Source: Actinomycetes bacterium (GTDB taxonomy: Bacteria > Actinomycetota > Acidimicrobiia > Acidimicrobiales > RAAP-2). Taken from it: a stretch of 38,930 nt of DNA. The notes under the pieces were generated by a model, which saw only the letters and a program-made list of their open reading frames with translations, was not told the origin of the DNA and searched no databases. A program made the translations under genes and the position numbers. The DNA lies in contig JAKAFH010000011.1 of assembly GCA_021818025.1 (NCBI GenBank), positions 1 to 38,930 on the forward strand. The letters are read 5' to 3'. Shown piece after piece: positions 925-19,539 of this stretch; position 1 is the first letter of the stretch, and each line of letters begins with the position of its first letter.

Positions 925-931
925 GAGAACT

Positions 932-2974
932 ATGAGCACCGTGTCCGTCACCCAGTCCGGTTTGCGCCGAGACCCCGCCCTCCTGCGTCGCGCGGGCGTC
1001 GAGGCGCTGCGCAAGCTCGACCCCCGGACGCTGGTGCGCAATCCCGTCATGTTCATCGTCGAGGTCGTCACGGTGCTGGCGGCGTTCTTCTGGCTGAAGG
1101 GTCTGGGCACGAGCTCGAGCGCGACCAACGTCTTCGCCGGCGTGACCGTGGCGTGGCTCGCGGTCACGGTCCTGTTCGCCAACTTTGCCGAGGCCGTCGC
1201 CGAGGGCCGTGGTCGGGCCCAGGCCGACGCCCTTCGGCGCACGCGCGCCGACACGGTCGCTCGGGTGCGACGCGATGGCGCGGTGATCGCGACGCCGTCG
1301 GCCGACTTGCGCGTGGGCGACGTGTGTGAGGTCGGGCCGGGCGAGATCATCCCGGGCGACGGCGAGATCATTGAGGGCATCGCGACCGTCGACGAATCGG
1401 CCATCACCGGGGAGTCGGCGCCGGTGATCCGCGAGTCCGGCGGCGACCGCTCGGCGGTGACCGGTGGCACGCGCGTGCTGTCGGACTTCATCGTCGTGCG
1501 CATCACCTCGAATCCGGGCGAGACGTTCCTTGACCGCATGATCTCGCTCGTCGAGGGGGCGAGCCGCCAGAAGACGCCCAACGAGATCGCCCTGGACATC
1601 CTGCTCGCGGGACTGAGCCTCGTCTTTATCATCGTGATCGTCACGCTGCAGCCACTGGCCGCCTACTCGCACGCCACCCAGTCGATCGTCGTGCTGGTCG
1701 CGCTCTTCGTGTGCCTGATCCCGACGACCATCGGGGCGCTGCTAAGCGCGATCGGCATCGCCGGCATGGACCGGCTCGTCCAGCGCAACGTACTCGCCAC
1801 CTCCGGACGGGCCGTGGAGGCGGCCGGGGACTGCTCGACGCTGCTGCTCGACAAGACCGGCACGATCACCTACGGCAATCGTCGGGCGGTCGACCTGGTC
1901 CCGGTAGGCGGTGCCGAGGTCGCGGATCTCGCCCAGGCGGCGCTCTGGTCGAGCCTTTCGGACGAGACGCCCGAGGGTCGATCGATCGTGGAGCTGGTTC
2001 ACGAGTCCTACGACCTAGCCGACGAGCTTCCCGGGGCGGCGGACCTCATCCCCTTCAGCGCGCACACGCGCATGAGCGGGGTGGACGTCGGGGGCCGCCA
2101 GATCCGCAAGGGCGCGGGCAGCGCCGTGACGGCCTGGGCCAACTCGCTCGGGCTCGCGACCCCGCCGGACCTCGCCAGCGTCGTCGAGTCGATCAGCGCC
2201 GACGGCGGCACGCCGTTGGTGGTGGCCGATGCGACACGGCTCCTCGGGGTGGTGCACCTGAAAGACGTCGTCAAGCCCGGCATGGCCGAGCGCTTCGCCC
2301 AGTTGCGCGCCATGGGGATACGCACCGTCATGATCACCGGCGATAATCCGCTGACCGCGCGAGCCATCGCGGGCGAGGCGGGCGTCGACGACTTCCTCGC
2401 CGAGGCTACGCCCGAGGACAAGATGAACCTCATCCGGCGTGAGCAGGCCGGCGGGCACCTGGTGGCGATGACCGGTGACGGGACCAACGATGCGCCAGCG
2501 CTCGCCCAGGCTGACGTGGGCGTGGCGATGAACTCCGGAACCCAGGCCGCCAAAGAGGCGGGCAACATGGTCGACCTCGACTCGGACCCGACCAAGCTGA
2601 TCGACATCGTCGAGATCGGCAAGCAGCTGCTGATCACGCGCGGCGCGCTCACCACGTTCTCCATCACCAACGACATCGCGAAGTTCTTCGCCATCGTGCC
2701 GGCGATGTTCGTCACGCAGTTCCCCGCGCTGCGTGCGCTCAACGTAATGGGCCTGACGAGTCCCCACTCCGCGATCCTCTCGGCGGTCATCTTCAACGCG
2801 CTCGTCATCGTCGCGCTGATTCCACTGGCGCTGCGCGGCGTGCACTTCCGGGCCGCGGGCGCCTCGTCGATTCTGCGGCGCAATCTGCTCGTCTACGGCC
2901 TCGGGGGAGCGGTGCTGCCCTTCGTCGGGATCAAGCTCATCGACGTGGTCGTCACGGCCCTGGGGGTGCGATAA
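932..2974 (+). CDS. kdpB: Potassium-transporting P-type ATPase subunit KdpB
   Basis: KdpB is the ATP-hydrolysing subunit of the Kdp K+ pump, a membrane P-type ATPase of about 680 aa; this protein is 680 aa. The phosphorylation motif DKTGTIT puts the catalytic aspartate at residue 307, as in E. coli KdpB. The actuator motif TGES puts its serine at residue 162, the position where E. coli KdpB is phosphorylated to inhibit the pump. The hinge motif [21 protein letters not shown] is present towards the C-terminus. AGGAG lies 5 nt before the ATG start. The stop codon overlaps the kdpC start by one base, so translation is probably coupled. Confidence 0.98.
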
Positions 2975-3564
2975 TGCGTCGAGTCATCCGTGCGTCCCTC
3001 GTCATGCTCGTAAGCCTCAGCGTGCTGACGGGGCTCGCCTACCCACTCGTCCTGACCGCCCTCGCCCAGGCGAGCGTGCCCGGCCGGGCCAACGGCTCGC
3101 TCGTCTACGTCCGTGGTCGCGCCGTGGGTTCGGCGCTGATCGGCCAGTCCTTCACGAACGCCGCGGGCCGGCCGCTGGCCCAGTACTTCCAGCCGCGACC
3201 GAGCGCCGCCAACTACGACGCCCTGGCCTCGGGCGGCACGAACCTGGGCCCGTCAAGCCCGGTGCTGTTGCGCAGTGTCGCGACACTGGCGCGCGCCTAC
3301 CGCGCCTTCAACCACCTGACACCGGGGACGCCCGTGCCGGTCGACGCCGTCACGACATCGGGATCCGGGCTCGATCCGGACATCTCGATCGCCAACGCGC
3401 TCTTGCAGGCGCCGCGCGTCGCCGCGGCCCGTCACCTCAGCCGCGCCGTCGTTCGATCCCTGGTCCAGCGCTACACCCAGGGCCGCATCCTCGGTATCCT
3501 GGGTGAGCCGGTCGTCAACGTGCTCGAGCTCAATCTGGCGCTCGAGCGTCTCGGTCGGCATTAG
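2974..3564 (+). CDS. kdpC: Potassium-transporting ATPase subunit KdpC
   Basis: KdpC is the single-span accessory subunit of the Kdp pump. The protein is 196 aa, normal for the family. It has one N-terminal membrane helix (about residues 7-29) followed by an extracytoplasmic domain. The family stretch with RPSAANYDALASGGTNLGPSSP is present near the middle. The ATG shares its first base with the last base of the kdpB stop. An AGGAGG sequence right after its stop is the ribosome-binding site of kdpD. Confidence 0.96.
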   Translation: MRRVIRASLVMLVSLSVLTGLAYPLVLTALAQASVPGRANGSLVYVRGRAVGSALIGQSFTNAAGRPLAQYFQPRPSAANYDALASGGTNLGPSSPVLLRSVATLARAYRAFNHLTPGTPVPVDAVTTSGSGLDPDISIANALLQAPRVAAARHLSRAVVRSLVQRYTQGRILGILGEPVVNVLELNLALERLGRH

Positions 3565-3573
3565 GAGGCGTGG

Positions 3574-6045
3574 GTGCGCGGCAGGCTCCGCATCTACCTA
3601 GGGGCCGCTCCCGGCGTTGGCAAGACCTACGCGATGCTCGACGAGGGCGCTCGACGGCTCGGCCGCGGTTCTGACGTCGTCGTCGGCTTCGTCGAGACCC
3701 ACGATCGAGTCCAGACCGCCGCGCGCCTGGAGGGACTGACCGTCCTCGCGCGCCGGCGGGTCGTCTATCGGGATCAGGTGTTCGAGGAGATGGACCTGCC
3801 GGCGATCCTGGCGCGCCACCCGAGCGTCGCACTGGTGGATGAACTGGCGCACACCAACGTGCCCGGCGTGGAGCACGTGAAGCGGTGGGAGGATGTCGAG
3901 GAACTGCTCGAGGCGGGCATCGACGTGATCTCGACAGTCAACCTGCAGCACCTCGAGAGCGTGAACGACGTCGTCGAGGCGATCACGGGCATCGCCCAGC
4001 GCGAGACCGTCCCCGACCGGGTCGTGCGCGCGGCCGAACAGGTCCAGCTCGTCGACCAGACGCCCGAGGCCCTGCGCCGACGTCTCGCGCACGGCAACAT
4101 CTACCCGGCCGAGCGCGTGGACGCGGCGCTGAGCAATTTCTTTCGACCCGGGAACCTGGCCGCCCTTCGCGAATTGGCGCTGCTCTGGCTCGCCGATCGG
4201 GTCGACGACGAGATCCAGAGCTACCGCGAGCGGCACGGCATCGTGCGAACCTGGGAGACCCGCGAGCGAATCGTGGTTGCGATCGCCGGGGACACGTCGG
4301 CCGAGCGCGTGATCCGGCGCGGCGCGCGCATGGCGGCTCGCTCACACGCCGAGCTCGTGGGGGTCCACGTCACGAGGGGTGACGGCCTGAGCACCACGCA
4401 CGCCGGGCTGGACGCCGCACTGGGGCTACTCGAGGAGCTCGGTGGCCGCTACGTGGAAGTCGTGGGCACCGACGTCGCGGCGAGCCTCGTGGCGGTGGCG
4501 CGATCGGAGAACGCCACGCAACTGCTCCTCGCGGCCTCGCCCAAGTCACGGCTCGCGACCTTCCTGCACGGCTCGGTGGTGGCGCACTGTGTCGCACTGA
4601 CCCGCGGGGAGATCGACCTGCACGTGATCGGTGCGGCCGAAGCGGAGAACCCCGAGCCCCGGGCGCGCAATCGGCGCCGCTGGTCCAACCCGGTCGGACG
4701 GCGCCGCGAGCTCGCGGCGGCCGCCATCGGGGCGGCCGGGTTCGTCGCGCTGACGCTGGCGCTCGGCGGCGGGGGATCGCGGAACTTGCCCCTGGCCATC
4801 AGTGCGCACCTGCTCGTGGTACTCGCGGTCGCGGGTGTCGGCAGCGTGCTCGAAGGCCTCGCCGCGGCCATCGTTGGCTTCGCGCTCATCAACTGGGAGT
4901 ACACGCCGCCGGTGCACACTTTCTCCGTCGCCGATGCACGCGACGTCGCGGCGCTCGTCGCCTACCTGGCGGCGGCGCTGTCGGTCAGCGGACTGGTGGA
5001 CCTGGCCACGCGGCGCACCCGGGCGGCCCGACGCGCCGAACGCAACGCCCGGGCCCTCGCGCGACTGGCGCGTAGCGTCGCGGGGGGCCAGGAGGGCATG
5101 CGCGACCTGGTGACCCAGGTGGTGCGCGTCTTTGAGTTACGCGGCGCCTCGTTGCGTGCGACGACGTCGCCCAACGGGGACGTCACGGTCGGGGTCATTG
5201 AACCCGACGATCCCGTCGTGCCCCTCGGCGAGGGCTACGAATTGCGCGTGGGCGGGCGCATGGACCCGGCTGAACGCGAGCTGCTCGTCGGCGTGGCCGC
5301 GCAACTGGTGCTAGCCCTCGAGCGCCGGCGTCTGCAGGCTGAGGCCAATGAGCGCGACGCACTGGCTGAAGGCGATGCGTTGCGTGCGTCACTGCTGGCC
5401 GCGGTCAGTCACGACTTGCGAACTCCGCTGGCTTCCATCAAGACTGCGACGACGACCCTGATCAGCGCACGAGACCGATTGGAGGATGGCGAGGTGGCCG
5501 AACTGCTCGAAGGCATCGACGCCGAGTCCGATCGGTTGAACGGACTGGTGGGCGACCTGCTCGACATGAACCGAATCCACGAGGGCACCGTCGAGATCAC
5601 GTCGCAGCCGGTCGATCTCGTCGAGATCGCCGAGCGCGCCATCGCCGAAGCCCGTCGCGCCGTAGCCACGCCCGAGGACGTGTCGCGCCACGGCGCGCCG
5701 AGCATGCCGGTGACGACCGATCCGGTATTGGTGGAGCGCATCGTCGCGAACCTGGTTCGCAACGCCCTCGAGCACGGCGGCGCGCCGGTGAGCGTCGATC
5801 TCGATCGAGCGGGCGGCGGCGTCGTGTTGCGGGTGATCGACCACGGTCCGGGCATCGACCGCGACCAACGCTCGCACGTCTTTGAACCCTTCCAACGGCG
5901 CGGCGACATCACCCGGGGCCGGGGCGTGGGCCTGGGGCTGGCAATCGCGCGTGGGTTCGCTACGACGGTGGGTGCAGTGCTTGACATCGAGGACACCCCG
6001 GGCGGCGGCTGCACGATGGTGCTGAGCCTGCCGGAGAAATCGTGA
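3574..6045 (+). CDS. kdpD: Osmosensitive K+ channel sensor histidine kinase KdpD
   Basis: KdpD is the membrane sensor kinase that phosphorylates KdpE when K+ is limiting. The 823-aa protein begins with the cytoplasmic KdpD domain, with Walker A GAAPGVGKT at residues 10-18 and DELAHTN further on. A universal-stress-protein-like domain follows (about 225-350), then four hydrophobic helices (about 375-475, DUF4118-like), a linker, and a HisKA domain with phospho-acceptor His613 in AAVSHDLRTPLASIKT. A HATPase domain (NLVRNALEHG, DHGPGID, GLGLAIA) completes it. I chose the GTG at 3574 because AGGAGG lies at 3563-3568, 5 nt before it. It overlaps kdpE by 4 nt (GTGA). Confidence 0.96.
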   Translation: MRGRLRIYLGAAPGVGKTYAMLDEGARRLGRGSDVVVGFVETHDRVQTAARLEGLTVLARRRVVYRDQVFEEMDLPAILARHPSVALVDELAHTNVPGVEHVKRWEDVEELLEAGIDVISTVNLQHLESVNDVVEAITGIAQRETVPDRVVRAAEQVQLVDQTPEALRRRLAHGNIYPAERVDAALSNFFRPGNLAALRELALLWLADRVDDEIQSYRERHGIVRTWETRERIVVAIAGDTSAERVIRRGARMAARSHAELVGVHVTRGDGLSTTHAGLDAALGLLEELGGRYVEVVGTDVAASLVAVARSENATQLLLAASPKSRLATFLHGSVVAHCVALTRGEIDLHVIGAAEAENPEPRARNRRRWSNPVGRRRELAAAAIGAAGFVALTLALGGGGSRNLPLAISAHLLVVLAVAGVGSVLEGLAAAIVGFALINWEYTPPVHTFSVADARDVAALVAYLAAALSVSGLVDLATRRTRAARRAERNARALARLARSVAGGQEGMRDLVTQVVRVFELRGASLRATTSPNGDVTVGVIEPDDPVVPLGEGYELRVGGRMDPAERELLVGVAAQLVLALERRRLQAEANERDALAEGDALRASLLAAVSHDLRTPLASIKTATTTLISARDRLEDGEVAELLEGIDAESDRLNGLVGDLLDMNRIHEGTVEITSQPVDLVEIAERAIAEARRAVATPEDVSRHGAPSMPVTTDPVLVERIVANLVRNALEHGGAPVSVDLDRAGGGVVLRVIDHGPGIDRDQRSHVFEPFQRRGDITRGRGVGLGLAIARGFATTVGAVLDIEDTPGGGCTMVLSLPEKS

Positions 6046-6713
6046 GCACCGTGCTCGTCGTCGACGACGACCGGGCGCTGGTCCGGGCGCTAAGCATTGG
6101 CCTGCGCGTGCACGGCTTTGACGTCCACGCCGCGACGACCGGGCCCGAGGCGCTGCGCGTGGCCGGCAAGGTACACCCTGACGTCGTGCTCGTCGATCTC
6201 GGTCTGCCCGGGCTCGACGGGATCGAGGTGATCGAGGCGCTGCGTGGCTGGAGCGAGGCCGCCATCATCGTGCTCTCGGCGCGCCCCCAGGAGGCGGTGA
6301 AGGTGGCGGCCCTGGACGCAGGGGCCGACGACTATCTGACCAAGCCCTTCGGCATCGACGAGCTGCTGGCCCGGGTGCGCGCTGTTTCGCGACGGCGGGT
6401 GTCCGCCACTGAGCCCGTGGTGCACGTGGGGGCAATCACTATCGACCTCTCGGCACGGCGCGTCGAGCGCGATGGTGCGCTCGTGCATCTCACGCCAAAG
6501 GAATGGGCCGCCCTGGCGGTCTTGGTGCGCCACCCGGGCCAGCTCGTGACCCACCAGACCCTGCTCGAACAAGTGTGGGGCGAGGGGTACGGCACCGAGA
6601 CCGAGTATCTGCGTACGCTCTTCGCGCGACTGCGGCGCAAACTGGAAGATGATCCATCCGCTCCCCGCCATCTCATCACCGAGCCGGGTGTCGGCTACCG
6701 CCTCGAGTCGTAA
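6042..6713 (+). CDS. kdpE: Response regulator KdpE, OmpR/PhoB family
   Basis: KdpE is the DNA-binding partner of KdpD and activates the kdp promoter. The 223-aa protein has a receiver domain with the acidic pocket VVDDDR at residues 6-11, phospho-acceptor Asp52 in VDLGLPG and the conserved TKPF lysine. A C-terminal OmpR-type winged helix follows (LTPKEWAALAVLVRHPGQLVTH to YLRTLFARLRRKLED), ending in GVGYRLES. The GTG start overlaps the kdpD stop. It is the last gene of the kdp operon; a perfect hairpin lies 31 nt downstream. Confidence 0.96.
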   Translation: MSTVLVVDDDRALVRALSIGLRVHGFDVHAATTGPEALRVAGKVHPDVVLVDLGLPGLDGIEVIEALRGWSEAAIIVLSARPQEAVKVAALDAGADDYLTKPFGIDELLARVRAVSRRRVSATEPVVHVGAITIDLSARRVERDGALVHLTPKEWAALAVLVRHPGQLVTHQTLLEQVWGEGYGTETEYLRTLFARLRRKLEDDPSAPRHLITEPGVGYRLES

Positions 6714-6743
6714 CGAAGCGGTGACGAGTCTAGAAACGGGGAC

Positions 6744-6760
6744 GCGAGGACTCTCCTCGC
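6744..6760 (+). terminator. Hairpin after kdpE, possible terminator
   Basis: A perfect 7-bp stem (GCGAGGA / TCCTCGC) closes a 3-nt loop, 31 nt after the kdpE stop. No T-run follows, so it would be a non-canonical terminator or an mRNA-stabilising hairpin. Confidence 0.4.
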
Positions 6761-6815
6761 CGTGAGCAGAACGGAGAGACCCCAGTGATTCCAGGGCCTT
6801 TCGGCGCTTGGGTTC

Positions 6816-6856
6816 TTGGTGGGCCGCCCGGGTCTCGATCCCGGCACCTTGGGATT
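6816..6856 (-). repeat. Orphan 3' half of tRNA-Lys: left attachment-site repeat
   Basis: This 41-bp block is identical to 11293-11333. In the right-hand copy it is the tRNA-Lys sequence from the anticodon loop to the CCA end plus one base. Here the 5' half of the tRNA is absent and the sequence diverges (GGATCT instead of AAAAGT) at the anticodon loop. This is the expected scar of integration into a tRNA gene by a tyrosine recombinase that crosses over in the anticodon loop. Weaker similarity between the two loci continues leftwards to about 6750. Confidence 0.75.
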
Positions 6857-7216
6857 GGATCTGGCCCGTCCGAGCGCATCCGTGAAAATCCATCTGACCT
6901 GGTCAGATCCGTTGGCAAATTCGCCGACGTCCGCCGAAATCCTCTCGAATTTGGGCCCTGGGCTACACCAGTGGCGACATGAAGCGGGCTCCGGGGCTGC
7001 CGGAGTTGTGAGCTTCGACAGTTCCAGTGGTGAGTCGTTTGAGCTTCGGATCGACCTCTGAGGCACGGCAAGTTTCTAAGAGCCAACGAATGAACCGGGT
7101 CGGACCACCGCGATCCCCGCAACCTGACTGAACGAAGGTGCTCGAGTTTCTCGCGAACATTCCCGTCGCCGCCGTTCGGGAGATGGTCGTGTTCGATTGG
7201 CGCGAGCGTCGCGCAA

Positions 7217-8221
7217 TTAGTCTCGCCGGTGTTTGCTCGCCACGTAGTCGTTCAGCCATGCGCGGGTGCTGCGCCACTGTCCATCGGGACCTTTCTGTGC
7301 GCGAAGGCGCCCGCGCTCGATTGCTGCGCGAAGCGACACGACGCTACGTTCCTTCGTCGCCAACGCCGCGAGTGGGACAAGGCGGTTGGGCCCGGCGACC
7401 GCAGGAACAACGAAACGGTAAAGGTTGTCCGTGATCGCGCGCGCGATCAACTCACCAAGAGGACCTGGGTCTTCTTCGTCCGCTCGCTGCAGGGATCGAA
7501 GGTACTTGATTCGGTCTCGCTTGTAGATGATGACCGGCGGGTAACCCATACGAATCAGCACCAGGTTGAGCAGGAGCCGACCGGTGCGACCGTTGCCGTC
7601 GAGGAAGGGATGGATCCGCTCGAACTCACCGTGGGCGGCTGCGAGTGACTCGATGTGATTCTCGGCGGTGCTGATCCGAGAAAGTGACGACACCCAGTCC
7701 GACATCGCGGATTCGACTTCGACCCACGATGGTGGGGTCATGCCGCTCGGGAATGACTGGATGTCGTGGCGACGAAAACTGCCCGGTCGCTCCTCTGCGG
7801 TGGCGTTGGGGTGGGGAGCGACGCCCCACACCGGACCGAGGGCTAACTCGTGTACGTAACGCACTTCGGTCATGTTTAGTGGGGCATCGGGAGCCCAGTC
7901 ACCTGGATCGAGGGCCTGCCCGTAGACCCACTTCGCGGCGTCGGCGTAACCCGTGACCTCCATGTACTCGCGAAGTTCCTTGTTCCCGACGGCGAGGCCC
8001 TGGGCGAGGAGCGCTTCGACCTGTTCGAGTACGAGGGTGTTGCCTTCGATCGCGGTCGACTGATGAGCCTCCTGGTACCAGATGGACGTCCAGATGTCCT
8101 CGGCTTCCGCGGGAGACGGCAGACCGCCCATGCGTTCGCGCAGCTCCTCGACGGCTTCGCTCAGTCGTTGGTAGATGGCTTGGCGAGATGGCCGCCCCCG
8201 TCGTGATTTGTTGGGTTCCAC
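7217..8221 (-). CDS. Fic-family protein AMPylase, class II self-inhibited
   Basis: Fic proteins transfer AMP, or occasionally another nucleotide moiety, onto hydroxyl side chains of target proteins. The 334-aa protein carries the complete catalytic motif [12 protein letters not shown] at residues 204-215. The inhibitory-helix motif STAIEG (Ser55 to Gly60, with Glu59) lies N-terminal to the Fic core, which defines class II and means no separate antitoxin is needed. The C-terminal ~60 residues look like a small winged-helix domain. The start is GTG at 8221; no Shine-Dalgarno is visible and a -10 box lies 8 nt upstream, so the mRNA is probably leaderless or nearly so. The gene sits inside the tRNA-Lys-bounded island, next to IS elements, which suggests horizontal acquisition. 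The target is unknown. Confidence 0.92.
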
Positions 8222-8229
8222 GAGAAATA

Positions 8230-8258
8230 ATTATAACACAACAAATTAGGTTTGTCGT
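8230..8258 (-). promoter_or_regulatory. Sigma70-type promoter of the Fic gene
   Basis: On the minus strand, ACGACA (8258-8253) and a consensus TATAAT (8235-8230) are separated by 17 nt. The -10 box ends 8 nt before the GTG start, so transcription should begin at or within two bases of the start codon. The stretch is strikingly AT-rich compared with its surroundings. Confidence 0.7.
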
Positions 8259-8401
8259 GGAGCGAATAATTCTGCTCAAACTCGACAATTCACTCTGAAG
8301 TAGTTCGGTAATTCAGGGTCCCGAAACACAAAGACCTCGCATCAGGCTCCGCGATGACCCGCCAGTGGCTGATACTCAAGCCGCCATCGGTGAGACGGGC
8401 G

Positions 8402-8425
8402 GCGCTGCTGTCGATTTAGTTGACA
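8402..8425 (+). repeat. Left terminal inverted repeat of the IS3 element
   Basis: These 24 bp are the exact reverse complement of 9638-9661. Confidence 0.9.
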
Positions 8426-8465
8426 TCTAACATCCAGGCAATTGCCCTGGGGAAGGATGGCAGCG

Positions 8466-8750
8466 ATGGCAAGAAGGTATCCCAAGGAGTTCCGTGACGA
8501 CGTGGTCAAGGTAGCCCGTCTGCACCAGTCTCCCATGACCCAGATTGCGAAGGACTTCGGCATCTCCGAGGCGACGCTCTATGAGTGGATGAAGAAGGCC
8601 GACGTCGAAGACGGTGCTCGTCCGGGCGTCACGTCGTCACAGGCCGAGGAGAACCGCGAGCTGCGCCGGCGCAACCGCGTGCTCGAGCAGGAGGTCGAGA
8701 TCCTGCGCCGCGCGACCGCCTACTTCGCCAAGGGTCTCGCCCCAAAATGA
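8466..8750 (+). CDS. IS3-family transposase OrfA, helix-turn-helix protein
   Basis: OrfA supplies the end-binding helix-turn-helix part of an IS3 transposase. The 94-aa protein contains the HTH (about residues 5-42, with YPKEFRDDVVKVAR and IAKDFGISEATLYEWMKKA) and a leucine-zipper-like segment (ENRELRRRNRVLEQEVEILRR). The ATG at 8466 is preferred because GGAAGG lies at 8451-8456; an in-frame ATG at 8457 is possible. Its stop overlaps the orfB start in AAAATGA. It is intact, but its partner orfB is not. Confidence 0.88.
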   Translation: MARRYPKEFRDDVVKVARLHQSPMTQIAKDFGISEATLYEWMKKADVEDGARPGVTSSQAEENRELRRRNRVLEQEVEILRRATAYFAKGLAPK

Positions 8751-9621
8751 TCTACCCGCTCGTCCGCGAGTTGGCCGATGACGGTATTCCGGCCGGTGAC
8801 GTGCCGGGTACTTCGCTTCTCCCCCCAGGGTTACTACAAGTGGTTAAAGGCGCCGTGCTCGAAGCGCGACTACGACAACGCGCATCTCACGAACGCCTTG
8901 ATCGACCTGCACCGCGACGACCCGACCTTCGGCTACCGCTTCATGGCCGATGAACTCGAGATGCTCGACGAGTCGGTCAGCGAGCGACGGGTGTGGCGGC
9001 TGTGCTCGGAGATGTCGATCTTCTCGGCCTTCACCAAGAAGGGCAGGGCGGCGAAGAAGCCCGGCGCCCCGGTCCACGACGACCTGGTCCAGCGCAACTT
9101 CACAGCGTCGCGTCCGAACGAGAACACGAACGGACTGCTTCGTCAATACTTCCCGAAGGGCACTGACGTGTCACGGTGGACGGCCGAAGAGCTCGAAGCG
9201 GTTGCCCACGCACTCAATACTCGGCCACGAAAGACCCGTGGTTGGAAGACGCCCGCAGAAGTTCTCGATGAACACCTACGCTTGGCCCAACAAGCCAGTG
9301 TTGCTTCCACCGATTGAATCCGGACAATTTCGAAGCCGGGACTTCGTCATGCTGCTAAAGAACAACGGACTGGTCGGTTCCATGGGACGCGTCGGCGCCG
9401 CGGGTGACAACGCCCGCATGGAGTCGTTCCACTCACTGTTGCAGAACAACGTGCTCGACACGAAGAAGTGGGAGACGCGCGAGGAACTGCGCATCGCGAT
9501 CGTCACTTGGATCGAGCGGACATACAACCGTCGGCGCCGCAAGCGCAGTCTCGGTCGCATGACGCCAGTGGAGTTCGAAGCCGTGTTTCAGGCCGTTGAC
9601 GATGCGCATGTCGCAGCGTGA
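8747..9621 (+). pseudogene. IS3-family transposase OrfB, frameshifted and with its core replaced by IS30 sequence
   Basis: The frame starts with MIYPLVRELADDGIP, typical of IS3 OrfB. It changes frame at about 8783-8800 to continue as VTCRVLRFSPQGYYKWLK and the HTH_21-like part up to VQRNFTA (about 9105). The DDE core that should follow, with the first two catalytic aspartates, is missing. About 208 bp instead encode the C-terminus of an IS30-family transposase (NENTNGLLRQYFPKGTD, ALNTRPRKTRGWKTP, stop at 9315-9317). From about 9325, in another frame, the OrfB C-terminus resumes (QFRSRDFVMLLKNNGLVGSM, WIERTYNRRRRKRSLGRMTPVEFE). No working transposase can be made. Confidence 0.88.
9108..9317 (+). 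mobile_element. IS30-family transposase C-terminal fragment inside the IS3 orfB
   Basis: In this frame the protein reads SRPNENTNGLLRQYFPKG, then EELEAVAHALNTRPRK and GWKTPAEVLDEHL, and ends in QQASVASTD with a stop. That is the conserved tail of IS30-family transposases, including their natural C-terminus. No IS30 inverted repeat is obvious on either side. It takes the place of about 220 bp of IS3 OrfB core. The left junction is placed by eye, to within about 6 bp. Confidence 0.8.
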
Positions 9622-9637
9622 AACTATGGAAAGGAAC

Positions 9638-9661
9638 TGTCAACTAAATCGACAGCAGCGC
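9638..9661 (+). repeat. Right terminal inverted repeat of the IS3 element
   Basis: These 24 bp are the exact reverse complement of 8402-8425. Confidence 0.9.
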
Positions 9662-9689
9662 GGCTGTCGTCGGCGACTAGAGGCCTTTG

Positions 9690-9712
9690 GGGGGTCTCCA
9701 TCTAACCGGAGT
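9690..9712 (+). repeat. Left terminal inverted repeat of the IS1595 element
   Basis: These 23 bp are the exact reverse complement of 11110-11132. Confidence 0.88.
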
Positions 9713-9744
9713 GGATTTCGCCAACTCGCAGTAGGGTCACGAGT

Positions 9745-10775
9745 GTGCTGGTCGCTTCTCGTGCTCACTGGGACTATCCCGCTGATTTTGGCGAGTTCGC
9801 CACGTGGTTCTCGACGGACGCTGACTGCTTGGACTATCTGAGGTGGTTGCGTTGGCCCAACGGCTTCGCCTGTGGGGTCTGCGGAGAGTCGGGCTGGCTC
9901 AACGGGGACGGGCGCCATGAGTGCTCATCGTGTCACCTACGCACAAGCGTCACCGCCGGCGCCATCTTCGACCGCACACGGACTCCCCTCACGGTCTGGT
10001 TCTACGCGGCGTGGCTTTTCGCGACAAGCAAGGACGGCATCTCAGCTATGGCGTTACAGCGCCAACTCGGTCTTCGCAGTCACCAGACAGCCTGGACGAT
10101 GCTCACCAAGCTGCGGACCGTCACGGTCAATCCTGGTCGCGACCTGCTGACAGGAGATGTGGAGGTCGACGAGACCTTCTACGGCGGGCGCACGCCGGGT
10201 CAGCGAGGAGGCCGCCAGTACGGCGCGAAGCTGCCCGTAATCGTGGCCGTCGAACGCCGTCAGCCCCGCGGGTTCGGTCGCTGTCGAATGGTCATCGTCG
10301 ATCGCATCAACCACGCGACCCTTCGCCAGTTCCTCGTCGAAAACGTCGCACCTGGCTCAACGATTCACAGCGACGGGCTCAACTCCTATATCCGAGCCAC
10401 CAGGGGCCTTTACACGCTCAACGCGCAGCCGGCCCCTGGCGTCTTAGCGACGGTCGTACTGCCGGGAGCCCACCGGGTGGCCTCGCTCTTCAAGCGCTGG
10501 ATGCTCGGCACCCATCAGGGCAGCGCCGACTGGGACCACCTGGCCCTGTATCTGGACGAGTTCGTCTTTCGATTCAACCGACGAACGAGTCGCCATCGGG
10601 GCCTGTGTTCTTCCGCCTGATGGAGCAAGCGGTTGCGCACGGCCCCGCGCCCTACCACGAACTCATCGTCGCCCCGCGTCCCAAGCGAGTTCCGCCCACG
10701 CCACCAGTGCCGACGCTGCGCGGACGAACGCTCACGCTCGAGAGACCTCGGGCAGTCCGACCCTGGAGAGGCTGA
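9745..10775 (+). pseudogene. IS1595-family (ISXO2-like) transposase with a late frameshift
   Basis: The upstream frame gives 291 aa (stop at 10618-10620) with a zinc ribbon (Cys43, Cys46, Cys60, Cys63) and an ISXO2-like DDE domain: Asp142 in EVDETFYGG, Asp210 in HSDGLNSY and Glu272/Asn278 in DEFVFRFNRR. After NRRTSRHRG the family normally continues with an FYRLLEQAV-like tail. Here that tail (VFFRLMEQAVAHGPAPYHELI) lies in another frame, reaching a stop at 10775. About one base appears lost near 10600-10606. All catalytic residues precede the shift, so residual activity or recoding cannot be excluded. Start GTG at 9745; the upstream boundary is uncertain. Confidence 0.82.
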
Positions 10776-10811
10776 AACGAGCTCTCGAGCTGGCGCCACG
10801 TTGAGGGTGGC

Positions 10812-10985
10812 TTACGACGGGCGATGCTGGATGGCGCGCCAGACCCACGCGGCCTCAACAACGACCAGCAGGCCGAGCACGACATAGGCACCGACCGCGC
10901 CGGCAAACTTCCCGACCACTAAGGTCAGCAGCACTATGGCGACGAGTGTCAGCCAGAACTTGACCGCACCAAATACGAACCTCAT
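10812..10985 (-). CDS. Small membrane protein carried within the IS1595 element
   Basis: The 57-aa product starts MRFVFGAVKFWLTLVAIVLL and has two hydrophobic stretches (about residues 8-23 and 28-47), ending in a short basic tail. AGGTGG lies 5 nt before the ATG. I do not recognise the family. It lies between the transposase and the right inverted repeat, on the opposite strand, so it would move with the element as a passenger. A longer frame reading upstream through the tRNA-Lys is not credible. The function is unknown. Confidence 0.55.
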   Translation of the reverse strand: MRFVFGAVKFWLTLVAIVLLTLVVGKFAGAVGAYVVLGLLVVVEAAWVWRAIQHRPS

Positions 10986-10993
10986 CTCGCCAC

Positions 10994-11107
10994 CTAAAGA
11001 CCGTTGAGTTTCTTCAAGTACCGTACCCCTTCGGCAGTGAATGCCAATCGATCGTCTTGTACCTCTGGCAAACCGAGGCCGCGGTGGGAAAACCACCAAT
11101 CTCGCGT
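10994..11107 (-). pseudogene. C-terminal gene fragment resembling a winged-helix tail
   Basis: From a TAA at the edge of the right inverted repeat, this minus-strand frame reads 37 codons to a TAG at 10996-10994. It contains TRDWWFSHRGLGLPEVQDDR and then LAFTAEGVRYLKKLNGL, which has the look of the last helix of a winged-helix protein. There is no ATG in it. Its stop lies 8 nt before the start of the small membrane protein, as in a two-gene operon. It may be the cut-off end of a gene captured with that small gene. Confidence 0.35.
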
Positions 11108-11109
11108 TT

Positions 11110-11132
11110 ACTCCGGTTAGATGGAGACCCCC
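11110..11132 (+). repeat. Right terminal inverted repeat of the IS1595 element
   Basis: These 23 bp are the exact reverse complement of 9690-9712. Confidence 0.88.
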
Positions 11133-11292
11133 TAGAGGCCTAGTCTGACGCGACCACGCCTTACCCACGCTTTGCCCACGGAAAGTGAGCAAGGACAGGT
11201 AGAAACTGGTAGAAACTGAGAGGCGATGATCTTTCTCGCAACGAGCAGAATGGAGGACCCCAGTGATTCCAAGGCCTTTGGGCGCTTGGGCT

Positions 11293-11333
11293 TTGGTGGG
11301 CCGCCCGGGTCTCGATCCCGGCACCTTGGGATT
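11293..11333 (-). repeat. Right attachment-site repeat within tRNA-Lys
   Basis: These 41 bp are identical to 6816-6856 and in the same orientation. They cover the tRNA-Lys from its anticodon loop to the CCA end. Together the two copies bound 4.4 kb of accessory DNA. Confidence 0.75.
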
Positions 11334-11369
11334 AAAAGTCCCCTGCTCTTCCCGATGAGCTAGCGGCCC
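11294..11369 (-). tRNA. tRNA-Lys (anticodon TTT)
   Basis: The 76-nt minus-strand sequence folds as a full cloverleaf. The acceptor stem is GGGCCGC/GCGGCCC, the D stem GCTC/GAGC, the anticodon loop CTTTTAA and the T stem CCGGG/CCCGG with loop ATCGAGA. The CCA end is encoded. The first anticodon-stem pair is a G-A mismatch, and the T loop starts with A rather than T. Its 3' half is duplicated at 6816-6856; the intact copy probably supplies the functional tRNA after integration. Confidence 0.93.
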
Positions 11370-11507
11370 GGCGGATGGAGAAATGCGTTGAGAAATGCTC
11401 AACCCCCGGACCACGCAGTTTAGCCGGGGCCGATTGCCAAGGATTTCTGGTCGAGATCGCCGCACTTAAAGTTGCCGAGATTCATTGGCGCGAGAGGCAA
11501 GTTCGGT

Positions 11508-11890
11508 TCAGCTCACCAATTCGAGCACCGGCTCCGTGACGTCCGCTCCTCCACCGTGAACCATTTGGTCCACGACCTTCCAGCCGGTTTGGAAGTACCA
11601 CGACTTGGCATTGTCGTAGATGAAATAGAAATAGAGGTGCGCGTCAAGCAGGATCGGGATGCGACCAACTGCCTGAGCACGCTTGTGGGGATAGGTGACC
11701 TTGTGGTGCGCGATTCCACCCTCTGACGTGTTTCGGCCGGCTCCGAAGAGGCTTGAACACGTCGTCATCTTCCGGGAAGACGCGGTAGTTCTCGGCTACC
11801 TTGTGGCCGTAGTCTCCGTTCTCCTTGTGCGGCGAGTCCCATACGGCCGTTTGGTCTTCGTGGAATGTACAAATAGCGACTTTAGTAACT
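11508..11890 (-). pseudogene. Disrupted gene, two overlapping minus-strand frames
   Basis: A minus-strand frame reads protein-like sequence (VAICTFHEDQTAVWDSPH, ENGDYGHKVAENYRVFPEDD) up to about 11752. The next good stretch lies in a different frame (NTSEGGIAHHKVTYPHKRA, then LLDAHLYFYFIYDNAKSWYF and QTGWKVVDQMVHGG), ending at the stop at 11508. Joining them needs one frameshift near 11745-11760. I do not recognise the family. An alternative is a complete 86-aa gene starting at the ATG at 11768. The upstream end is not defined and would abut or overlap the divergent gene at 11898. Confidence 0.45.
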
Positions 11891-11891
11891 T
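11886..11891 (+). promoter_or_regulatory. -10 box (TAACTT), leaderless start of the 349-aa gene
   Basis: TAACTT lies exactly 6 nt before the ATG at 11898. A GGTGA between them could also act as a weak ribosome-binding site. No good -35 is visible. Confidence 0.45.
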
Positions 11892-11897
11892 GGTGAA

Positions 11898-12947
11898 ATG
11901 TCAGCCGCACCCCCATCATCTTTTGCGGAGAAGCTCGTGCGAGCACCCGCCGGTGTCGCACTCTTGGCCCGCTTGGAGGCCACGCAACGCGATGACATTC
12001 CTTGGTTCGGGTGGCCAAAAGACTCGAATCTGAACGCGGTTGATCGTGCGGTGTCTTCCCTTTGGGATATGCCGTATGGAGAATTACTCGAACTGGCTGT
12101 CTACTCCGCCGAATTTCTGGCTGGACCATGGAGTGGCGAAGCACTCTTGTCGCTCCCTTACTTGTATGAGCAGGCCGTGCATCGTCGCCCGATAGCCGAG
12201 GTCGTATCCGAAAGGCTCCACACAGAGCTCCACCGAGACGCGGACTTTGGCGCACAACAGTGGTGGTACGAAGAGCCACAAGATTCAATTTCTAGTGCGA
12301 CCCCCTGCTTCACCAACTACTCGAACGTATACGGCAACGGCGAGTTCACGTGCAGCGGGCTTTGGACCACGACGAACCCGCCACCAGAAGTTCACGACGC
12401 CCTCATTTCAGCGTGGGACTTTTTCGGACGACCCGTCTCGCGCTGGCTACTTCCCGTTCGACCGAGCGCGCGCGTATGGAACATCAACGGACCCGAAGAC
12501 TGGGCGCATTTGGTCGAGACCTATCCGAAAGTGGCGACTCGACCGCATGCTGGTTGGGAGCTGCCTGGCCCCAACCAGCATCCATCCGATACCAAGATGT
12601 TGAGGTCTATCGCTGCTCAGCACGCTGTGAGAACCGAGATCACTGTTCACGTGCTGCCCGACTGGGAGTGCGTCGCGACCGACTTCGACGGGGTTCATCT
12701 CAGTTGGGCGGGGTTTCTCACTGCCGAGGGTTATATCAGCGACCTGTCCGACGGAGGCGTCACGATGTTGCGGTACTGGGGCAGCGAACGTACCCTTTGG
12801 CTCCACGACGTTTTCGACGAACCAATTCCCCTCGGAGCCCCTGCGCTTACTGGGCAAGTCGGTGGCGGAGTTGGAGTTGATGCATCGAGCGACACCGAGC
12901 GCCAGGCGTCGGACAGGTCGATAGTCGAAACACTCTTGGGCCGCTAG
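11898..12947 (+). CDS. Hypothetical protein, 349 aa
   Basis: The frame is long and its composition is protein-like: rich in Trp, Tyr and Pro, soluble, with no signal peptide or membrane span. I do not recognise a family. It has clusters such as QQWWYEEPQDS, FFGRPVSRWLLPVRP and ITVHVLPDWECVATDFDGVHL. The C-terminal ~35 residues are low-complexity (Gly, Asp, Ser). Codon third positions are less GC-rich than in the kdp or hem genes, which suggests foreign origin. It is divergent from the disrupted gene at 11508-11890 and lies just outside the tRNA-Lys-bounded segment. Confidence 0.7.
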   Translation: MSAAPPSSFAEKLVRAPAGVALLARLEATQRDDIPWFGWPKDSNLNAVDRAVSSLWDMPYGELLELAVYSAEFLAGPWSGEALLSLPYLYEQAVHRRPIAEVVSERLHTELHRDADFGAQQWWYEEPQDSISSATPCFTNYSNVYGNGEFTCSGLWTTTNPPPEVHDALISAWDFFGRPVSRWLLPVRPSARVWNINGPEDWAHLVETYPKVATRPHAGWELPGPNQHPSDTKMLRSIAAQHAVRTEITVHVLPDWECVATDFDGVHLSWAGFLTAEGYISDLSDGGVTMLRYWGSERTLWLHDVFDEPIPLGAPALTGQVGGGVGVDASSDTERQASDRSIVETLLGR

Positions 12948-13091
12948 GGCATTGGACGCCACGCAACAAATATGCGTGCCTGCACCCAACCCAACCAGGC
13001 CCCATTGCCGTACAGCCCAGCCCACTTTTCGGGAACTAGCCCAGGGCGGTTTCAAGGGGTCAGCGCAATGCCCGACAGGCAATGACCAGGG

Positions 13092-14351
13092 TTACGTGCG
13101 ACAGTGCAATGTCGCAAGCGGGACGACGACGGCTGCTTTCTTCGTTCCGTCCATCGCAATCGGTGACACGAAAGTAATCACCAACGCCGACTTGCCCGAC
13201 TGCATTGTGACGACGGGGTCGCTTCGAGTTGCCACCGGCAGGAGGGCATTAGTGGCGCACCACGTATTCGATTGCGGCTTGAGCATCGCCAGATGCTCGG
13301 CCGTCTGGAACGGCGAGCCGGTGACCGCCACGAGGGCGCCGGTTGAAGTGATGGTCATCACCGGCCCGTACGGGTAGGCGCTGCTTCCGACGCGCGCGCC
13401 GCCGAGCCTAGGGAGTGACACCGTGTTCCAGTGGGTCCCGTCGCGGGTGTAGAGCAGGGCGCTCTGCCTCGTGCGATCGATCAGGAGTTCGCCGCCCGAC
13501 GACGTGGTGACCAGCTGCTCGCCGGCACACGGGTTCACCGACGCGACAGCACCTGCCGCGCGCCACGTCGTCCCCCGATACTCATTGGCCGAGCCCACGA
13601 GCACGGACTGCCGCCATTGCGACATCCCGCACGCTCCCTGGGGCGACTCGGGCCCAAAGATCACGCACGGCGCGCCCGATGGGCAGCTCAGGTTCACGTC
13701 GGTCCACGTCCGACCACCCGTCGCCGACGTCGTGGCCACGAACGCGACGGACTGGCCGGGCCCAGGCGGAAAGAAGTAGTTGGCTTCATAGAGCATCGCC
13801 ACGCCAGTGGGACGCTCGACGAAGCCGGCGAAGTCGGTCAGCGTGTAGCCCGTGGGCGGTGGCACGAAGCGCCAACTCCGACCCATGTTCGTCGTCACCA
13901 GTGCCACGCCGTAAGACGGGGGAATGGTTCCGCCCTTGCTCGCCTGGAACCCGGCGTAGATGGTCGATGGATGCCTCGGATCCAAGGCCACGTCCTCGCA
14001 CACCGCGACCGCGGCGGGACTCCCAGCAAGATGACCCAGGGCCAGGTGTGCTCGTGCGAGCATCGTGGTCACGGCGCCGTCGCCAGCACGAGTGAAGCGG
14101 CCCCCACGCGAGGAGATCACCACGCCCGTCGGGGTGCACCAACCCACGGTGGTGTTGCCGGGCTGGGCGGCAAGTGGACTGCCCCATCCCGACGGCTGGA
14201 CGAGTGTGGGCCGGACGACGCTGAGCGATGCCCACGGTACCGACTGGACGTTCGCCGCCGCGCTCGACCGTGTCGCAGCAGTCACGCTCGCCCCCAGCAG
14301 CGCGCTCAGGAGAACGATTCGCCACAGCCTGGTCACGCCACACTGTGCCAT
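13092..14351 (-). CDS. Secreted BNR/sialidase-like beta-propeller protein
   Basis: The 419-aa protein begins with a signal peptide (MAQCGVTRLWRIVLLSALLG, cleavage probably near SSAAA). The rest looks like repeated beta-propeller blades, as in BNR or photosystem-II-stability-factor-like proteins: LDPRHPSTIYAGF, LVTTNMGRSWRF, ATSATGGRTWTDV and LLYTRDGTHWNTV are Asp-box-like repeats. No catalytic residues of true sialidases can be assigned by eye, so an exported binding or structural protein is equally possible. I chose the ATG at 14351 rather than an in-frame start 33 nt upstream because AGGGAG lies 6 nt before it. Confidence 0.75.
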   Translation of the reverse strand: MAQCGVTRLWRIVLLSALLGASVTAATRSSAAANVQSVPWASLSVVRPTLVQPSGWGSPLAAQPGNTTVGWCTPTGVVISSRGGRFTRAGDGAVTTMLARAHLALGHLAGSPAAVAVCEDVALDPRHPSTIYAGFQASKGGTIPPSYGVALVTTNMGRSWRFVPPPTGYTLTDFAGFVERPTGVAMLYEANYFFPPGPGQSVAFVATTSATGGRTWTDVNLSCPSGAPCVIFGPESPQGACGMSQWRQSVLVGSANEYRGTTWRAAGAVASVNPCAGEQLVTTSSGGELLIDRTRQSALLYTRDGTHWNTVSLPRLGGARVGSSAYPYGPVMTITSTGALVAVTGSPFQTAEHLAMLKPQSNTWCATNALLPVATRSDPVVTMQSGKSALVITFVSPIAMDGTKKAAVVVPLATLHCRT

Positions 14352-14706
14352 AGTCGACTCCCTACTAGGCAGCAGGTGTCGCATCGAGTTAGGGGCGCAT
14401 CGTTTCGGGGCTCGCGGCGCAGGAACGTGCGCGCTCGCAAAGCCTCCGAACGGGATCGGCCGCTATCGATTCCCGCTGCGTCCTCTGGCTACTCGGGGGA
14501 CCGAGAGTCCAGTCAACCGGTCCTGTTGTCATTCGTGGACCAGGTGGAACGCGTACTGTCCGCAGTATTGCGTCGTCAGCCGACCGTGTCGATTCGCCGC
14601 GGTGAGGGCGCCGTCTGCCCGTGAACGCCAGCGGGTACCTGTCAGCCTGGCTCGCTTACGCATCCAGAGTCGCGATGGATGCTGCGCAGTACCCTCGCGT
14701 CGTGCG
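14352..14706. other. Gene-free stretch upstream of the BNR-like gene
   Basis: This 355-bp stretch lies between the BNR-like gene and the end of the GNAT gene, both on the minus strand. It should contain the promoter of the BNR-like gene. Frames that cross it do not look like protein. I see no repeats or RNA genes in it. Confidence 0.4.
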
Positions 14707-15153
14707 TTAGGGCTGCTGGTAGACGTCAGGATGCCGGACTTCCATGAAGCGCCAGGCATTACTGATCGCGCTGAAGCCGAATTGCGCGTAGAGCCCGTGG
14801 GCGTCAGACGTGAACAGCAAGAGGCGACGGAGTCCTTGCAGATCCGGGTGCTTCATGACCTCGTGCATCAGCCACTTCGAGAGACCCTTGCCCCGGTGCG
14901 CTTGGACGATGAACACGTCAGCCACGAGGGCGAACGTCGACTTGTCCGTTACTATGCGCGCGAAGCCGACCTGGGTCGCGTCGTGATAGACGCCGAAACA
15001 CAGCGAGTTCTCGATCGACCGCGCCACGACGTCCCGGGGGATGCCGCGGGCCCAGTACGACTCGTCAGACAGAAAGTGATAGATCGTGTCGACGTCCAGC
15101 CGTTCTCGGTCGGTCGAGATCTCGTAGCCACTAACGCCCATGGGAGTTTCCAC
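14707..15153 (-). CDS. GNAT-family N-acetyltransferase
   Basis: The 148-aa protein fits a single GNAT domain. The acetyl-CoA-binding motif A is ADVFIVQAHRGKGLSKWLM (about residues 78-96, with the Q/R-x-x-G-x-G/A core), and the C-terminal motif is YAQFGFSAI. The substrate cannot be told. The start is GTG at 15153; on the minus strand CAGAAT lies exactly 6 nt upstream of it, so the transcript may be leaderless. Confidence 0.88.
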   Translation of the reverse strand: METPMGVSGYEISTDRERLDVDTIYHFLSDESYWARGIPRDVVARSIENSLCFGVYHDATQVGFARIVTDKSTFALVADVFIVQAHRGKGLSKWLMHEVMKHPDLQGLRRLLLFTSDAHGLYAQFGFSAISNAWRFMEVRHPDVYQQP

Positions 15154-15224
15154 AGATCCATTCTGACGTCACGGTCACACTTGACTGCGCCTCGACACGA
15201 GAAGGGCGCCACCGCACCGACGCG

Positions 15225-15794
15225 TCAGTCCGAGCGCGCGACCAGGCGTGCGTGCCACTCGCGACGCAGCAATCCGTACACAAAGGAGTCCGACACGTCG
15301 CCGTCGACGACGCAGTCCTCGCGCAGGGTTCCCTCGCGCACGAACCCGAGCCTCTCGAGCACGCGGGCCGATGCCACATTGCGCGTGTCGACTTCGGCCT
15401 GGACTCGACGCAGGTCGAGCTGGTCAAAGGCCCACCGCAGCAACTCGCCCGCGGCCTCGGTGGCGTAGCCCTGGCCCCAGGCGTCACGCGCGAAGCAGTA
15501 GCCGAGTGCCGCGCTGGCGTACTGGGGATTCCACCGTCGAAGACTGCACCAGCCAAGAAAGGCGCCGTCGCGGGTGCGCTCGGCCGCGACCCGCACGCCC
15601 GTTCCCTCCCGAGCGATCTGCTCGCTCGCCTCGACGAAGGCGTGCGCCTGGTCGAGCGTTCGCCACCGCGGCGAGTCCCAATAGCGCATCACGAGTGGAT
15701 CGCTGTGCAGAGCGAAGAGTTCGTCGTGGTCGTCGTCGGACACCGGCCGCAGCCGCAGCCGGTCGGTTGAAAGGAGGGGCGTCGTCAACGGCAC
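15225..15794 (-). CDS. RimJ/RimL-type GNAT N-acetyltransferase
   Basis: The 189-aa protein has the Acetyltransf_3 arrangement: N-terminal LLSTDRLRLRPVSDDDHDEL, central ALGYCFARDAWGQGYATEA (acetyl-CoA loop WGQGYATE) and C-terminal VASARVLERLGFVREGTLR. RimJ/RimL relatives acetylate N-terminal amines or small molecules; the substrate here is unknown. It is preceded by the MFS gene on the same strand after a gap of about 105 nt. The start is GTG at 15794. Confidence 0.9.
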   Translation of the reverse strand: MPLTTPLLSTDRLRLRPVSDDDHDELFALHSDPLVMRYWDSPRWRTLDQAHAFVEASEQIAREGTGVRVAAERTRDGAFLGWCSLRRWNPQYASAALGYCFARDAWGQGYATEAAGELLRWAFDQLDLRRVQAEVDTRNVASARVLERLGFVREGTLREDCVVDGDVSDSFVYGLLRREWHARLVARSD

Positions 15795-15900
15795 GGCGTC
15801 AGTCTCGTCGTGAAACGAGCGATCGTCAACGCGGCGACGAAGGCGACGGTCGGGTGCACGGTGGCGTCACCCGATCGTGTTACGCGCGGTGGGTTTGTCA

Positions 15901-17259: not shown

Positions 17260-17379
17260 CGACCGCTCCTCACGTCACCTTCACTCGAGAATGGCGACCT
17301 CGCCGCAACCCCCATTCGACAAACACCGCTGCCGTTGGCCTCAACCCGCCCGCGACTCGGTCCGCGGACCCGACCTGGC

Positions 17380-17721: not shown

Positions 17722-17900
17722 GTCGTCCCCCTTTGCGGCACCGCCGCTGGTCACTCGTCTGGTGGCCCAAGCACGCCCCGCTTCGGCCAACCATATAGAG
17801 CGCGAGTCCATTACGGCGTTTTGATAGTTGAGAGAATTCTTTGCGATTCGCGTGCGCATCTGCTCGTCCAGGCGCAAAGAGCACTCGTCGCTCGCAGCGT

Positions 17901-17906
17901 TAGGCT
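17901..17906 (+). promoter_or_regulatory. -10 box (TAGGCT), leaderless start of the CoA-transferase gene
   Basis: TAGGCT lies exactly 6 nt (CTCGCA) before the GTG at 17913, and no Shine-Dalgarno is present. Transcription should start at the start codon. Confidence 0.6.
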
Positions 17907-17912
17907 CTCGCA

Positions 17913-19439: not shown

Positions 19440-19455
19440 GGCGCTCACGGCGCCT
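19439..19455 (+). terminator. Hairpin at the end of the CoA-transferase gene
   Basis: AGGCGC and GCGCCT form a perfect 6-bp stem around a 5-nt loop, beginning at the last base of the stop codon. No T-run follows, so this is only a weak terminator candidate. Confidence 0.3.
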
Positions 19456-19539
19456 GGCGTGGCGACACTTGTGGCGCGCCGCGAACGAGGTGTGTTCTGC
19501 CAAGTTCGAACGCTCGTGAACAAAACGTCAAGCGATGAC

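Follow-up and report, generated by a model that had tools for sequence, protein, structure and literature searches.

The 38,930-nucleotide contig JAKAFH010000011.1 of assembly GCA_021818025.1 (the window, contig C33 of the draft genome G000) contains a 4.4-kb block with a Fic-domain gene and two insertion sequence (IS) elements, bounded on one side by an intact tRNA-Lys(TTT) gene and on the other by a copy of the 3' half of that gene. The window probably holds the decayed end of an array of integrative modules anchored at tRNA-Lys(TTT), which is found with more copies of the half-tRNA in relatives of the same genus. The organism is an uncultured member of an Acidimicrobiaceae-type genus, and its genome (2.06 Mb in 148 contigs) is 97.5% complete. 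The best 80 matches of the glycosyltransferase encoded in the core flank of the window belong mostly to metagenome genomes titled Acidimicrobiaceae, Acidimicrobiales, Actinomycetes or uncultured actinobacterium, and many of these relatives are peat-derived by name (palsa, bog, fen).

A preliminary description of this DNA had reported an exact direct repeat of 41 bp, which is borne out (Table 1) and which, at a roughly estimated chance of ~1e-16 in 38.9 kb, is far beyond random. The right copy completes a tRNA-Lys(TTT) gene and the left one is devoid of the 5' half, as had been stated; the stop of identity in the anticodon loop was also located correctly, since the identity between both copies begins at nt 37, the base 3' of the anticodon (nt 34-36). 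However, the exact core is only part of a larger repeat of 126 bp with 87% identity (6731-6856 against 11210-11333), which takes in about 85 bp past the tRNA 3' end. Regarding the traits of tRNA islands, the window has the direct repeat of the tRNA 3' end opposite the intact gene and the boundary in the anticodon loop, and no integrase beside the site; at the same tRNA an integrase is present in relatives. None of the matches of the window's genome to PF00589 or PF00239 lies on the window contig, in agreement with the earlier remark that the island has no recombinase gene.

The copies of the tRNA half were searched in 61 genomes of the genus using a 31-nt pattern of the 3' half with at most three mismatches, an intact tRNA being counted as one copy. 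The half is present in 51 of the 61 genomes, with at least two copies in 31, at least five in 17 and a maximum of 23; the reversed pattern, used as control, gave 0 in all 61. In the contigs that were read there are 148 fragments or tRNAs, distributed over 63 contigs, and the 36 contigs with at least two copies (121 copies) include none of mixed strand. Besides, in all nine contigs where an intact tRNA-Lys called by ARAGORN is accompanied by a fragment (G000:C33, G001:C109, G008:C128, G009:C49, G018:C71, G023:C8, G034:C2, G073:C19 and G089:C14) the fragments lie 3' of the tRNA. Tandem arrays, understood as same-oriented att-like repeats around different cargo, are seen in the relatives; the window itself holds two copies. 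The copy number grows with genome size (Spearman 0.74 over the 61 genomes, uncorrected for relatedness or assembly quality). One of these contigs, G089:C14, carries two complete tRNA-Lys(TTT) genes (68612-68685 and 70104-70177) located 1.5 kb apart and with similar 3' flanks, which is a whole-gene duplication inside the array.

There are 83 complete modules, each delimited by two fragments on one contig; their median length is 4,098 bp, the shortest measuring 312 bp and the longest 51.6 kb. PF00589 was detected in four of them (G001:C109, G028:C22 with two genes, G073:C19 and G082:C182), so that 79 of the 83 are without PF00589 and all 83 without PF00239, other recombinase families not having been searched. 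Serine recombinases were ruled out as movers, given that PF00239 has no match on any module contig of the 25 genomes searched. The 315 proteins called in the modules fall into 240 clusters, an approximate figure, as genes were called with a crude tool that gave 0.72 genes per kb and none at all in several modules, and the cargo is mostly different between modules. A Pfam scan was made with 40 hand-chosen array proteins out of the 315, ten of them from the 51.6-kb island of G073. Among the other 30 there are a peroxidase, P-type ATPases, GGDEF/EAL proteins, transporters of the MFS and ABC types, an ArsA-type ATPase and an AMP-binding enzyme, together with defence-like proteins (a TOTE-type primase-helicase and an OLD-like ATPase). 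The shortest module (312 bp, G035:C134), in which no gene was called, shows both end classes of the G073 island. Sequence blocks common to different genomes (at least 300 bp and 75% identity) end near fragments more often than expected: of 330 alignment ends, 89 are no more than 70 bp from a fragment, and the expected number is 14.4. For instance, the ends of a 1.56-kb block common to G005:C18 and G023:C8 are both at fragments in G023, and in a 5.5-kb block common to G023:C8 and G074:C38 one end is at a fragment in the two genomes.

In the upstream end classes U-ATG (34 fragments), U-GGA (18) and U-GAAT (4), which sum 56 fragments, the tRNA fragment starts at nt 32, and in the class U-CAG (38 fragments) at nt 37-39. 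The left copy of the window, starting at nt 37, belongs to the U-CAG cluster by pairwise similarity and is unclassified by the end profiles.

Several relatives have tyrosine recombinases next to the tRNA or its fragments. In G073, G074, G029 and G085 the type A integrase (410 aa) begins 97 bp beyond the 3' end of the intact tRNA, and the proteins from G005, G074, G085 and G029 (the last one partial, 267 aa) are 96.6-98.5% identical to that of G073. The G073 island, measured from the tRNA to the next fragment, encodes this PF00589 integrase, a TrwC relaxase, a TraG/VirD4-type coupling protein (TraG-D_C / T4SS-DNA_transf) and a type I methylase subunit; with an integrase, a relaxase and a coupling protein combined at the tRNA, it can be described as similar to an integrative and conjugative element (ICE-like). 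The type B integrase (441 aa in G082) is beside a fragment of the TAGCCA downstream class in G082, and its relatives adjoin tRNA-Lys fragments in G021, G026, G027, G035 and G069; one more relative is encoded in G012:C54, a contig without fragments in the pattern search. The alignment of type B proteins (for example L237:73-1371) runs through the tRNA fragment (87-137), and the same has been reported for dsiB at the ssrA gene of Dehalococcoides (PMC3146451). A third type consists of two tyrosine recombinases, 407 and 812 aa long and side by side in a G028:C22 module (L105:1716-5374), with a relative in G069:C33; the PF00589 domain of the 812-aa protein is located mid-protein. These three array types are only distantly related (22-29% identity) to the five PF00589 loci of the window's genome, the best match (E 1e-12) being a locus near a tRNA-Gly. 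Since that draft genome holds only distant relatives of the array recombinases, the block in the window is probably stranded there.

The comparison of the window with close relatives indicates that the site is differently occupied in G085 and G026. G085 is the closest relative according to the core-flank glycosyltransferase (95% at the amino acid level), and its tRNA and 5' flank align with the window (11294-11425, 93%) until the homology stops at the tRNA 3' end, downstream of which an integrase-bearing type A element is found; its match to the left copy of the window is limited to the 40-bp tRNA part. The match with G026 includes the 3' flank of the tRNA and continues at 91% as far as 11164, where the two sequences diverge. 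In G086, whose core-flank glycosyltransferase is 94% identical, a 181-bp repeat query found no match. The G085 stop and the integrase element there speak for the island anchored at the tRNA that had been proposed in the preliminary description. As a test, that text had suggested looking in relatives for a bare empty site or for integrase-bearing islands at this tRNA: the second was found in G085, and no bare empty site appeared in the relatives compared. The presence of the same 4.4 kb in all close relatives had been put forward as contrary to an island, and neither G085, G026 nor G018 has it.

The process that could generate these arrays would be the following. Tyrosine recombinases would cross over at or beside the anticodon loop, and at each insertion the incoming DNA would supply a new 3' half to the tRNA and the previous one would be displaced outward, with the result that every module would end in a same-oriented tRNA fragment. 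The same-oriented layout is a direct observation, and the insertion reaction is what would be expected from the known behaviour of tRNA-targeting integrases. Since the cargo of most modules is limited to one or a few genes, with no recombinase recognised among them, their insertion probably requires integrases encoded elsewhere, for example the 410-aa integrase of the ICE-like element. Movement in trans, one of the two options offered in the preliminary description, fits the modules better than the loss of an integrase. As the blocks end in the same half-tRNA and most of them are devoid of the insertion enzyme, the tRNA-Lys seems to act as a docking site for changing accessory genes. In the window, Fic would be the cargo of one module that has no longer its tRNA-side end and that the IS3-type and IS1595 elements would join to the end of another module.

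A second tRNA shows this organisation. tRNA-Gly(CCC) was used as a negative control and failed as such, because its layout is the same as that of tRNA-Lys: the copies are on the same strand, a few kb apart, they start at the anticodon region by eye, and the fragments are 3' of the intact tRNA-Gly where the intact gene shares the contig. In G028:C59, for example, the intact tRNA-Gly at 37.2 kb is associated with four pattern copies up to 42.3 kb; rows of tRNA-Gly fragments occur in this contig as well as in G023:C77, G017:C66, G009:C79 and G030:C16. The window's genome contains intact tRNA-Gly(CCC) genes at C64:18812-18885 and C135:82-155 (L264-L266, L093), 3' fragments at C12:9378 and C143:8161 and a copy at C143:11747 cut by the contig end, and a tyrosine recombinase is encoded 3.3 kb from the C64 tRNA-Gly. 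A wider and more tentative proposal is that the genus runs integron-like cassettes: several tyrosine recombinases, with two crossover registers at the anticodon, would share the half-tRNA site, cassettes with one or a few genes and without recombinase would be moved in trans by ICE-borne and other integrases at tRNA-Lys and also at tRNA-Gly(CCC), and the arrays would be a main store of accessory genes. This is possible, but we consider it doubtful.

An alternative is that, following transformation or conjugation, modules are acquired and rearranged through homologous recombination at the tRNA fragments, which would then be short homology tracts dating from earlier insertions. This is favoured by the many fragments of around 35-45 bp that do not differ from the tRNA, by the reappearance of modules among other neighbours and by the mixture of end classes within modules. 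However, 40 bp is short for homologous exchange, the classified ends have a sharp boundary at two fixed places of the anticodon region, and integrases adjoin tRNAs and fragments in several genomes, which makes this explanation unlikely.

The anatomy of the block in the window (Table 1) has to be considered together with the counterpart of its Fic module in G018, where 1,590 bp separate the intact tRNA from the fragment. In a comparison limited to matches longer than 60 bp, the fragment end of the G018 module is 73% identical over 240 bp (fragment included) to the window end beside the left copy; its tRNA-side end is of another class than that of the window, and it has no PF00589 match and little room for an IS. 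The Fic stretch of the window (6857-8398) has a G+C content of 60.7%, against 72.3% in the core stretch (28480-38930). IS1595 is flanked by an 8-bp direct repeat (9678-9685 and 11133-11140) read by eye, and no target-site duplication was seen by eye around the IS3-type element. The second transposase gene of the latter (8778-9621) consists of two overlapping frames, with HTH_21 in one and rve_3 in the other, and the region ~9100-9317 resembles by eye the end of another transposase; a transposase in two frames with such a foreign-looking end suggests that this element is probably broken or chimeric. From this anatomy and from the G018 module, the 4.4 kb are probably a fusion of two module remnants with both IS elements at the join, and the tRNA-side end of the Fic module would have been lost.

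Table 1. Features of the window around the tRNA-Lys(TTT) gene and its 3' fragment.
Feature	Position	Strand	Remarks
kdpA (cut by contig end), kdpB, kdpC, kdpD, kdpE	4-6713	+	Left neighbour of the fragment; NCBIfam
Remainder of the 126-bp repeat (87%) on the left side; end class labelled "D-native" in this analysis	6731-6815	+	
Exact 41-bp direct repeat, left copy	6816-6856	+	tRNA-Lys 3' fragment from nt 37 (nt 37-76); without nt 1-36
Conserved module end beside left tRNA fragment	6857-7054	+	Upstream-end similarity cluster 1; unclassified by end profiles
Fic-domain protein, module cargo	7217-8221	minus	PF02661, E 1.6e-16; 78% nt identity to G018 Fic module
IS3-family-like element	8399-9664	+	27-bp inverted repeats; transposase over two frames; NF033516 48.9 bits (cut-off 160)
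IS1595 element	9686-11132	+	32-bp inverted repeats; NF033547 176.8 bits (cut-off 75)
Counterpart of the left part of the longer repeat, 3' of intact tRNA	11210-11292	+	11164-11870 is 91% identical to G026:C7
Exact 41-bp direct repeat, right copy	11293-11333	+	tRNA nt 37-76 plus 1 base
Intact tRNA-Lys(TTT), anchor gene	11294-11369	minus	ARAGORN; sole tRNA found in the window

These data also bear on the other option of the preliminary description, i.e. a single autonomous island whose own integrase was lost through IS insertion or deletion. There are two IS elements between the repeats, the lack of a target duplication in the IS3-type element would be expected after an adjacent deletion, and integrase-bearing elements do sit at this tRNA in relatives. 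Nevertheless, the G018 counterpart of the Fic module is without PF00589, like 79 of the 83 complete modules, and the sequence 3' of the intact tRNA in the window is unlike that of the G018 module, so a loss of this kind is improbable. An old partial tRNA-gene or segmental duplication without site-specific recombination was rejected as extremely improbable despite the two complete genes of G089, because there are from 0 to 23 copies per genome with mostly different cargo between them, and the classified partial copies start at the anticodon region, with the same layout at tRNA-Gly(CCC).

Several points weigh against the interpretation of the window as the end of a tRNA-anchored array. The movement of modules is deduced, no excision, circular form or recombination having been observed, and homologous recombination between fragments could also shuffle modules; moreover, the loss of the tRNA-side end of the Fic module is deduced from G018 alone. 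Most assemblies are metagenome drafts in which many contigs break at repeats, the contigs of G009 and G029 are near-identical, and each block common to two genomes was counted from both contigs, so that the counts are not independent. The 24 genomes of the same order outside the genus gave at most two matches each, with no more than 12 candidates scored per genome. There are 26 unclassified upstream ends with a less sharp boundary, and no integrase could be clearly assigned to D-ACG, the most frequent downstream class (48 of 148). The pairing of end classes within modules is weak: in the modules classified at both ends (44 of 85), the mutual information is 0.338 against 0.207 when shuffled, and 79 of 5000 shuffles were as high as the observed value. 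An inverted motif (TGAYCAG / CTGRTCA) that was tried as end pairing was rejected, as both forms are present in 1 of 85 modules (Fisher p = 1.0). Neither the weak class pairing nor this null test assigns a recombinase to particular modules.

With respect to the flanks, the end of kdpE is about 100 bp from the left fragment. In the NCBIfam comparison kdpB and kdpC scored above the cut-off, and the best matches of the other genes (KdpA, KdpD and KdpE) were below it. The kdp homology in G026, G027, G087 and G088 goes no further than kdpE, and the stretches searched in these four genomes, of only 3.7 kb in G087 and G088, gave no fragment at E 1e-3; in the latter two genomes kdpE and the tRNA are on separate contigs. 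In G085, kdp gave no match at E 1e-70. A junction of kdpE with a fragment is absent from the relatives that were checked, within the limits of draft contigs, so kdpE may not be the ancestral flank of the left repeat. The kdp genes may be chromosomal or perhaps a further module, the contig ending inside kdpA. The consideration of "D-native" as the ancestral chromosomal flank is likewise doubtful, because in G004:C105 another, weaker fragment comes after it. On the 5' side of the tRNA, about 17 kb (11370-28480) with genes for a LacI-type protein, an ABC transporter and a glycosidase are missing from this position in G034, G018 and G008, in which around 2-3 kb separate the core flank from the tRNA; the part 15905-28230 is common to the window and G085 at 82%.

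These results point to a place where uncultured actinobacteria from acid soil and peat gather accessory genes and, in view of the correlation between copy number and genome size, the arrays may go with part of the genome-size range. The modules, with few genes and in most cases no recognisable recombinase, are well suited to the study of how recombinases of other elements move minimal cargo DNA, a question raised by islands without integrases. A further caution is that genes adjoining a repeat of this type on its left, such as kdp in the window, may be mobile as well.

Chromosomal integrons are rows of cargo cassettes separated by a repeated site and with a fixed anchor. The arrays described here are also cargo rows split by a repeated site at a fixed anchor, but the repeat is a tRNA half, the modules are larger, and the integrases A and B are far below the cut-off of the integron integrase TIGR02249 (31.2 and 32.0 bits, cut-off 265). 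In the literature searched, whose coverage is partial, no account of this genus was found.

Arrays at tRNA or other RNA genes have been described in other bacteria. In the flexible island fGI1 of Ca. Actinomarinales, which belong to the same class (Acidimicrobiia), cassettes are inserted at tRNAs and recognisable by repeats of part of the tRNA, with such repeats at the tRNA-Ile and tRNA-Glu loci as well (PMC7771536). These are marine, streamlined genomes, with several tRNAs within one envelope island, and the available part of the account names neither a recombinase nor long rows of fragments at one tRNA (PMC7771536); by contrast, in the present arrays a single tRNA half reaches 23 copies in a genome, and integrases and the ICE-like element are found at the site. 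In Dehalococcoides, islands with variable cargo are in tandem downstream of one RNA gene, ssrA, split by direct repeats of its 3' end, and 15 of 31 are without an integration module and were read as possible cis-mobilizable elements (PMC3146451). There the target is a tmRNA, the recombinase is a CcrB-like serine recombinase and insertion takes place in the T-loop (PMC3146451), whereas the arrays studied here involve tRNA-Lys, tyrosine recombinases, a boundary at the anticodon and a majority of modules (79 of 83) without PF00589.

The additive island fGI-2 of Ca. Methylopumilus is marked by repeats of the end of tRNA-Lys(ctt) (PMC10872708). It differs in the tRNA and in the repeat of 20 bp, no recombinase being named in the available part of that work (PMC10872708); our fragments, from tRNA-Lys(ttt), are longer, of several end classes, and accompanied by an ICE-like element at the site. 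The tycheposons, as described in the same source, are similar in the tRNA-bounded cargo, the tyrosine recombinase and the use of more than one tRNA (PMC10872708); tRNA boundary and tyrosine recombinase coincide in some modules of the relatives, and the window is without recombinase. In Frankia, two related ICEs in tandem in a tRNA-Lys gene excise singly or together (PMC3218068). Each of these two elements has its own integrase (PMC3218068), in contrast to the up to 23 copies and the mostly recombinase-less modules found here. The present case is of the same kind as the known tRNA and RNA-gene arrays, in another genus. What it adds is a higher number of copies per genome at one tRNA than those tRNA cases report in the text available, together with the presence of several types of recombinase at a single site and the existence of two or more anchors.

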